A stretch of 34,006 nucleotides of DNA, taken from a virus. The notes beneath the pieces were generated by a model that was not told where the DNA came from, ran no database searches, and saw nothing but the letters and a program-made list of their open reading frames with translations. The position numbers and the translations under genes were made by a program. This document shows, piece after piece, positions 25,678 through 26,855 of the stretch (positions are counted from its first letter, which is position 1; every line of letters begins with the position of its first letter). The stretch lies in the IMG/VR virus record IMGVR_UViG_3300043436_000846, positions 1 through 34,006 of that record. One strand, given 5' to 3'.

Positions 25678-26090
25678 TTAAAGCAACACTTACCCGAAAC
25701 TACACACTAACTCAAACGCTGGGCGAGTTGGTAATTGGCAATTTCAAATGTAAGACTTTGGAACTGGCTTGGAAGGATAACGCAAACAAGATTAGCTGCA
25801 TACCCGAAGGCGTGTATACGGTAGTTCCACGTCACTCTGCGAAGTATGGCAGACATCTACACATTACTAACGTGCCGAACCGTTCATTTGTGCTAATCCA
25901 TTGGGGTAATTACGCTGGTTCAATCAATTTAAAAAGCGGCCAGAGCGACATCAAAGGCTGCGTGTTGGTAGGGTCTGCAATGGCCGACATCAACAAGGAT
26001 GGCATACTGGACATTGTGAACTCCAAGCCTACCTTTGCTGGGTTGATGCTTATGTTTCCTGACGGGTTTGAGCTTACAATTAAGAGTTAA
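25674..26090 (+). CDS. DUF5675-like protein, possible peptidoglycan-active enzyme
   Basis: The 138-aa protein matches the DUF5675 pattern: CIPEGVYTVVPRHS, VPNRSFVLIHWGNY and DIKGCVLVG. H76 in IHWGN and C96 in KGC resemble the His and Cys pair of YkuD-type L,D-transpeptidase folds, so action on peptidoglycan is plausible but not established here. No other endolysin candidate is visible in the window. Its TAA stop lies inside the attC-like inverse core (26085-26091), as often seen for ORFs that end an integron cassette. Confidence 0.6.
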   Translation: MIKATLTRNYTLTQTLGELVIGNFKCKTLELAWKDNANKISCIPEGVYTVVPRHSAKYGRHLHITNVPNRSFVLIHWGNYAGSINLKSGQSDIKGCVLVGSAMADINKDGILDIVNSKPTFAGLMLMFPDGFELTIKS

Positions 26091-26181
26091 CGGTGGCGAT
26101 TGGCGAAGTAAAAGCCTTGAACTACCGTTGATGTTCAGCACTACACTTGATGGCTTTTATTTTGCCAATTGCGTGTTAGCT
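26085..26181 (+). repeat. Long imperfect palindrome, attC-like (left)
   Basis: Positions 26096-26116 pair with 26152-26172 (21 bp, three G·T). After a 4/2-nt asymmetric bulge, GTTAAC (26086-26091) pairs with GTTAGC (26175-26180). The hypervariable inner part contains TGAAC/GTTCA. The ends resemble inverse core RYYYAAC and core GTTRRRY, each with one mismatch. The overall shape is that of an integron attC site of about 97 nt. It could instead be an RNA hairpin or terminator, but no T tract follows. Confidence 0.5.
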
Positions 26182-26849
26182 GCTGCCCTTTCTTGGATTA
26201 TTAATTAACAATTTAAAATAAATAAAAATGTCAAAAACAAAAATTTTCTTCGACACGGAGTTTACAGGACTTCATCAAGGCACAACACTAATTTCATTAG
26301 GTGCTATTTCGGAATGTGGCAAAACATTCTACGCTGAATTTACAGACTATGCAATTACCCAAGTGGATGATTGGTTAAAAGAAAACGTAATTGCTAAACT
26401 TAACCACCCTAAAGGTGATGTAAGCGATTGTATAGTAACCGAAGATAGACCAAATGATATGTTGGTTTATGGAACTACCAAAGAAATTAAAACCTATTTA
26501 GAAAAATGGCTTTCACAATTTGAAGCAGTAGAAATGTGGAGCGATTGCCTTTCATACGATTGGGTGCTATTTTCTCAAATATGGGAACACGCTTTTAATA
26601 TACCAAAGAATGTTTATTACATACCTTTTGACATTTGTACGGTGTTTAAAATGAAAGCTATTGACCCTGATGTAAGTCGTGAAAAATTTGGCTGTGGTGA
26701 AGTCTATTTTGAAATGTCAAAACATAATGCTTTATGGGATGCAAGAGTAATTAAAATGTGTTACGAAAAGTTGATGGATGTACGTCCGTAGGGTTGCAGC
26801 TAACCAAAGGCTTTGCGAAGTTGCCTTTTGCAATTTTGCCAAGCCAATG
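26176..26849 (+). mobile_element. Candidate integron-type gene cassette (674 bp)
   Basis: The segment begins after G|TTAGCTGC (core at 26175-26183), contains one ORF in the same orientation (26228-26791), and ends in a 58-nt attC-like palindrome with core GTTAAAC (26849-26855). The inverse-core end GCAGCTAAC (26796-26804) is perfectly complementary over 9 bases to the 5' core GTTAGCTGC, and CCC/GGG continue the match. This is expected when a cassette circle is cut at its own attC. The ORF is more AT-rich than neighbouring phage genes. No integron integrase is in the window, so insertion would have been by one acting in trans. The match to attC was judged by eye. Confidence 0.55.
26228..26791 (+). 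CDS. DEDDh 3'-5' exonuclease (Rv2179c-like), cassette-borne
   Basis: The 187-aa protein has the exonuclease signature FFDTEFTGL (D9, E11), then [14 protein letters not shown] with D111, and [10 protein letters not shown] with H166 and D171, the DEDDh arrangement. It resembles the Rv2179c-like 3'-5' exoribonuclease family. Codons are AT-rich (many aaa, gaa, tta, att) unlike the genes around it. The leader is aaataaataaaaATG, A-rich and without Shine-Dalgarno. Substrate (RNA or DNA) cannot be told. In a phage it could degrade host RNA or DNA or act in defence. Confidence 0.75.
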
Positions 26850-26855
26850 TTAAAC
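26798..26855 (+). repeat. attC-like imperfect palindrome (right)
   Basis: AGCTAAC (26798-26804) and GTTAAAC (26849-26855) frame a stem in which 26809-26824 pairs with 26830-26845 (16 pairs, one mismatch at 26814/26840, two G·T), with a 5-nt loop and unpaired bases next to the cores. At 58 nt it falls in the lower range of known attC sites. GTTAAAC fits GTTRRRY exactly; AGCTAAC differs from RYYYAAC at one base. It begins 6 nt after the ORF stop, as in typical cassettes. Confidence 0.5.

Follow-up and report, generated by a model that had tools for sequence, protein, structure and literature searches.

A probable integron-like gene cassette in a tailed-phage genome, with its recombination site ahead of the gene and a candidate recombinase other than IntI in Bacteroidota

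Sites of the attC type are already known in phages as clusters of attC sites lacking integron-integrases (CALINs), and IntI1 is reported to recombine a folded single strand from a site of the Polaribacter phage P12002L (Qi et al. 2023, PMC9892861). The insertion specific to IntI has been called essential for integron function (Smyshlyaev et al. 2021, PMC8138268). Reversed integrons occur in Treponema, and the IntIs of Spirochaetota generally lie in reverse orientation (PMC9668308). Here we describe a locus in positions 1 to 34,006 of the IMG/VR virus record IMGVR_UViG_3300043436_000846, the whole stretch of 34,006 nucleotides being referred to as the window. It is likely that window positions 26091-26803 form a mobile cassette of an integron-like system, in which a hairpin ahead of the open reading frame (ORF) serves as recombination site and a host recombinase other than IntI probably acts on it. 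Sequence comparison reveals where the unit begins and ends, a site left empty in sister phages, matching core boxes, a conserved site structure, a contrast in gene polarity and a linkage of chromosomal sites to recombinase genes.

Two hairpins, hp1 and hp2, and the gene of a 187-aa DEDDh exonuclease lie between a DUF5675 gene and a 66-aa ORF (26918-27118). The first-pass annotation of the window had read the segment 26176-26849 as an integron cassette of this ORF and hp2, of foreign origin and moved by an integrase acting in trans. The core boxes, the single ORF and the downstream hairpin with its terminal GTTAAAC (26849-26855) are indeed present, and the proposed search for an empty site in related phages was successful. 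Fourteen close virus records (family A) were fetched via the DUF5675 protein (92-96% at the amino-acid level) and aligned to the window. Three of them (L084, L085, L086) hold an exact empty site, AAGAGTTAA directly followed by CTTTATT, and read ..AAGAGTTAACTTTATTTCC.. without an insert; L090, L091 and L092 are also empty, each with a base change. The additional 764 nt of the window (26091-26854) sit exactly between GAGTTAA and CTTTATT. Other members of the family have the site filled in different ways: hp2 stands there without an ORF in L083, a different hairpin and a different ORF precede the same hp2 in L081, another hairpin is found in L087, L088 and L093, a third in L089, and yet other contents in L082 and L094. 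The window, L081 and L083 have hp2 and the right flank in common, yet each differs from the others left of the TAAC of hp2. The junction is therefore placed at TAA^C on the hairpin's left side (the caret marks the cut), and the ORF came with the hairpin ahead of it.

A second group of phages leads to the same boundaries. The exonuclease cassette recurs (98% at the amino-acid level) in a different phage, the 28.6-kb record of L002 (read as L124), and relatives of this record (family B) were fetched via its flank genes. Five differing arrays are framed by constant sequences, GCGGCTAAC at the end of the left flank (altered by base changes in L204 and L205) and TCCCCGCTAAGTC as right flank. The array of L124 consists of two methyltransferase (MTase) genes and the exonuclease gene, and that of L199 of an MTase gene followed by ORFs of 72 aa and 108 aa. 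L202 and L203 carry the 108-aa ORF and a four-gene unit including MazG-like and thymidylate synthase-like proteins, L204 carries an MTase gene, a 66-aa ORF and another MTase gene, and L205 has at least six units on a contig which stops short of the right flank. The left parts of L124 and L199 are 99.9% alike, and the two diverge towards the right flank. The 108-aa unit ends the array of L199 and opens those of L202/L203, preceded each time by the same hairpin and followed by different neighbours. This relocation and the variation among the arrays show that the mobile units consist of a hairpin and the ORF behind it. The idea of a mobile unit inside a phage thus holds, supported by empty sites and alternative contents; the boundaries 26176-26849 do not, because the ORF moves with its upstream hairpin and hp2 stays at the right flank in three phages. 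A unit of ORF plus hp2 is rejected by L081/L083 and by family B. The upstream hairpin hp1, the stronger of the two, lies within the earlier start coordinate (26085) but was missing from the description. A specific tie between hp1 and the exonuclease was also considered and rejected: hairpins of the hp1 family precede quite different genes in L002 and in L125 and L129 from Bacteroidota genomes.

A covariance model of the site, R1, was built from 20 hairpins of family B, L120/L121, L125 and L129. In this alignment the AACG and TGTTA cores are invariant, a 1x1 mismatch is conserved, 17 of the 24 pairs show compensatory changes and the G-T wobble is retained in 19 of the 20 hairpins. R1 matches both window sites on the + strand (Table 1), with rough E-values and a training set in which the hp1 family is represented by one relative (L124) and hp2 is absent. 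The + strand of hp1 folds with -18.0 kcal/mol (z -3.6; - strand, z -1.1), and hp2 taken alone has no clear advantage over shuffled sequences (z -1.2). The GTTA/TAAC core is kept almost throughout the sites; the flanking bases vary, and purines are not strictly kept at the RRR positions (e.g. GTTAGCT). No known RNA family was found in Rfam. Neither a direct search of viral contigs for exact hp2 nor one of named phages for hp1/hp2 found anything.

The exact 9-base complementarity of the two core boxes, emphasized by the first-pass annotation, is weak evidence by itself, as the window contains seven such GTT..AAC pairs compared to about two in shuffled sequences. Across the site family, core boxes vary between cassettes and match within each. 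When the core box after one hairpin was compared with the box before the next, consecutive phage sites (21 pairs) matched at 5.52 of 8 positions versus 3.35 in permuted pairs, and bacterial sites (11 pairs) at 5.73 versus 3.45; neither value was reached in 20,000 permutations. A circular cassette that contains a single folded site needs this kind of match. For single cassettes, scanning simply for chained core-box pairs proved too weak. The exonuclease ORF is AT-rich, as noted before, and foreign in composition: its GC content is 34.6% versus 42.7% in the window, and only 1.8% of the windows of its size are that low. Copies at 97-98% on the amino-acid level were found in other phage contexts (L002, L003, L004, L008).

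Table 1. Features of the cassette and its flanks in the 34,006-nt window
Feature	Coordinates	Strand	Basis
Left flank, DUF5675 phage gene	25674-26090	+	Pfam PF18925, 5e-27
Upstream recombination site hp1 (TAAC, 21-bp stem, GTTAGCTGC), putative	26083-26183	+	R1 cmsearch, 48.4 bits, E 7.7e-11
Mobile cassette unit (hp1 + ORF), putative	26091-26803	+	Comparison with L081, L083, L084-L086 and family B arrays
Core box GTTAGCTGC	26175-26183	+	Sequence; partner of 26796-26804
Cargo: 187-aa DEDDh 3'-5' exo(ribo)nuclease, RNase AS/Rv2179c-like	26228-26791	+	PF16473, 4.7e-12; phrog_2259, 3e-54
Core box GCAGCTAAC at cassette 3' end	26796-26804	+	Perfect 9-base complement of 26175-26183
Downstream recombination site hp2, ORF-less hairpin unit at right phage flank, putative	26796-26857	+	R1 cmsearch, 28.3 bits, E 1.7e-5
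Right flank CTTTATTTCC..	26855-26920	+	Continuous with GAGTTAA in empty-site phages L084, L085, L086

The orientation of the genes relative to their sites separates phages from chromosomes. R1 was searched in 297 Bacteroidota genomes, 19 of which had matches under a strict filter; 12 loci, with further sites in the arrays there, were examined. With genes called as simple longest ORFs, genes beside R1 sites run along the folded strand in 84 of 85 cases in phages and prophages (one opposite), and against it in 45 of 49 cases in Bacteroidota chromosomes (four the same way). The chromosomal polarity is that of ordinary integrons. An attC downstream of its ORF, folding from the antisense strand, is not the arrangement of the phages. 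In intI-linked Bacteroidota arrays, which served as control, the spacer next to the ORF is mostly the shorter of the two (2/5-6 nt); the spacers of phage sites are reversed (4-6/1-3 nt). The more stable strand is the antisense strand in 14 of 19 intI-linked sites and the sense strand in 18 of 22 phage sites. By these comparisons the site type is common to both, and it is the direction of the gene within the cassette that is reversed in phages. Judged against open PMC papers, this mirror polarity appears to be new.

The absence of an integrase gene, from which recombination in trans had been proposed, extends to the relatives of the window: neither PF00589 nor the Y1 family PF01797 gave a match in 20 related phage records. 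Because no recombinase was found in the phages, the enzyme moving their cassettes is one we infer, namely an insert-less recombinase supplied by the host. Of 396 sampled genomes of the GTDB phylum Bacteroidota, 105 carry canonical IntI (TIGR02249 above cut-off), compared with 4 of 295 genomes in the order of the L125 metagenome-assembled genome and none of the 398 sampled Flavobacteriales. Only one weak R1 match occurred in 20 intI loci (344 kb), and canonical IntI is not likely to be the enzyme. Another tyrosine recombinase adjoins R1 arrays in L235, L236 and L245. It keeps the catalytic residues, an IntI-like C-terminal end of the SPxD type and a conserved LFEGQ motif; it is without the IntI-specific insertion, often has an extra N-terminal domain and stands apart from Xer in a small tree. 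On NF040815 (cut-off 220) the linked proteins reach 205-218 bits, and on TIGR02249 (cut-off 265) 192-200 bits. R1 sites were found within ~10 kb of the insert-less recombinase at 8 of 12 loci, versus 0 of 11 Xer loci in the same genomes (Fisher exact ~0.001). In every linked case where the side was read, the recombinase gene is located to the 3' side of the folded strand, where attI and intI stand in an integron. The protein is a candidate enzyme for R1 sites, and as a non-IntI recombinase in this role it appears to be new.

Resistance-like genes were observed near members of this recombinase family. In L235 (G044 contig 56, 5491-8572) an R1 array beside the insert-less recombinase holds SMR (small multidrug resistance, qac-like), dihydropteroate synthase (nearest Sul3) and Tet-like major facilitator superfamily genes, all of them under the curated cut-offs for named resistance genes. 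On the Acinetobacter and pHH1107 plasmids L275 and L278, tet(X3)/tet(X5) directly follows a truncated member of the family (tnpF/xerD). R1 sites were not found in tet(X)/estT plasmid contexts, these two included, and no claim is drawn from them.

A mechanism can be proposed in which the + (coding) strand of the phage, single-stranded during replication or entry, would fold into the hairpin. The host recombinase would cut the core box at TAA^C and link it with a bare hairpin's core or with a GTTAAC target. In the circular form GCAGCTAAC would pair with GTTAGCTGC, rebuilding the full site with the circle junction GCAGCTAACGGTGG. We infer crossover at TAA^C on both cassette ends as the exact cut position. 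In the window the bare hairpin hp2 would have been there first, and the cassette would have entered next to it where the DUF5675 gene has its stop codon; this TAA (26088-26090) falls inside the target site GTTAAC (26086-26091). As the target overlaps the stop codon, an inserted gene would be read by the phage operon only if turned the phage way round. The need to be read in this manner could account for the polarity rule, and the reversed polarity would be kept because the phage entry sites face against the phage operon. We lean towards the wider view that Bacteroidota possess a second integron-like system with an insert-less recombinase, that its phages maintain a cassette pool of their own with every gene reversed relative to the site, and that phage and chromosomal cassettes are mirror-image pools sharing the same recombination chemistry.

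Several other explanations were weighed. The core boxes and hairpin resemble attC, IntI occurs in the phylum and IntI1 can recombine a P12002L site (PMC9892861), all of which would suit an ordinary cassette of ORF and downstream attC, cut at G^TT at 26175 and 26849 by the canonical IntI of a host. The boundaries of such a cassette are contradicted by hp2 without the ORF in L083, another ORF before hp2 in L081 and the upstream-hairpin units of family B; the reversed spacer and strand asymmetry, the distribution of IntI among the sampled genomes and the near absence of R1 from intI loci likewise make it improbable. An inverted cassette as favoured here could also be moved opportunistically by the canonical IntI of some hosts. 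IntI accepts varied attC sites including phage ones, according to the same report (PMC9892861), and IntI-bearing genomes exist in the phylum; R1 sites, however, cluster by the insert-less recombinase and not by intI, which leaves this possibility unlikely. Strand-specific hairpins beside TAAC and the lack of a target duplication recall single-strand transposition of the IS200/IS605 or REP/RAYT kind, in which a Y1 enzyme acts on hairpins adjoining a tetranucleotide. The Y1 (HUH) transposase of such elements had no counterpart in the 20 records, and a Y1 mechanism predicts neither core boxes that pair only in the circle nor arrays linked to a tyrosine recombinase; it is hardly credible here. It is very improbable, too, that no site-specific enzyme is involved and that modules are reshuffled by an annealase, the hairpins being terminators or mRNA structures. 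The phage does encode an Erf-like annealase (23879-24424), Gam and SSB just upstream of the site, and G-U wobbles in the coding strand would also suit RNA. The boundaries, on the other hand, fall no more than a few bases from TAAC and share no further homology, core boxes are matched per cassette, and an mRNA role cannot account for the occurrence of the site family in chromosomes with genes of the opposite polarity.

Some observations weigh against the favoured reading of a hairpin-first cassette moved by a host recombinase other than IntI. Besides the failure to find a recombinase in the 20 phage records, 4 of the 12 insert-less recombinase loci are without an R1 site, and the linkage figure is valid within genomes that were chosen for carrying R1 sites and are small in number. 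R1 does not match the bare hairpins hpX, hp4 and hp6, nor the L003-type repeats (TAACTCGCTCATTCGTGAA) among which those phages carry the exonuclease. The virus records are metagenome assemblies, mostly fragments, and phages can also swap segments by homologous recombination.

The record itself has the gene set of a tailed phage, including portal, terminase and primase/helicase-type genes. Three successive sugar genes (28807-30832) encode a family 2 glycosyltransferase, a PLOD-type glycosyltransferase and a hexapeptide transferase with a PglD-like N-terminus. No tRNA was detected in the window, so that a tRNA target is not supported. The DUF5675 gene adjoins the site in the 14 closest records and is split upstream in L093 and L094 by an insert of ~0.9 kb (5264-6180 and 3107-4022, respectively; matching window 25937/25938), whose product has an HNH-like motif and may be a homing endonuclease. 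Elsewhere, lipoprotein genes begin inside a hairpin (L125, 2595-2760; L120, reverse strand, 2480-2330), with the 3' arm and a GTTAG core box coding for part of the signal peptide (e.g. MSNRKLNGFFAYVMLAAVLIASCN). L120/L121 (161-kb phage record G001), G002 and G003 contain arrays of small ORFs split by TAACTCGCTCATTCGTGAAC..GTCAGCC repeats, one array holding the same exonuclease (97% at the amino-acid level); these separators are without an R1 match and may be a second site type.

Phages would gain from such cassettes a plug-in system for single genes, among them DNA methyltransferases, a thymidylate synthase-like gene and nucleases. The findings suggest that cassettes of the integron type may be captured without the IntI-specific insertion, hitherto regarded as essential, and the opposite polarity in phage and chromosome would limit which cassettes pass usefully between them. 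With the CALINs of phages the locus shares attC-type clusters without an integrase and DNA methyltransferase cargo, and P12002L matches R1, at sites that may or may not include the one recombined by IntI1. Empty and refilled sites as comparative evidence, unit boundaries, a systematic polarity and a non-IntI recombinase were not found in the part of that report accessible in the open PMC literature (PMC9892861).

Like IntI integrons, the system described here combines one ORF with a strand-specific hairpin site, GTTA/TAAC boxes that match once the unit is circular, an organization in arrays and insertion at a short core; in the chromosomal arrays whose side was read, a recombinase stands at what would be the attI end. 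It differs in that the phage site precedes the ORF, the stem sequences form a separate family and the linked recombinase is without the IntI insertion; IntI with this insertion is absent from the 20 phage records. The study of the integron-like subgroup of tyrosine recombinases regards the insertion as essential (PMC8138268), but the insert-less members found here sit at cassette arrays, several of them with an added N-terminal domain. A non-standard orientation is shared with the Treponema integrons (PMC9668308), but there the integrase gene is turned, whereas in phages with R1 sites it is the cassette ORF that is turned relative to its own site.
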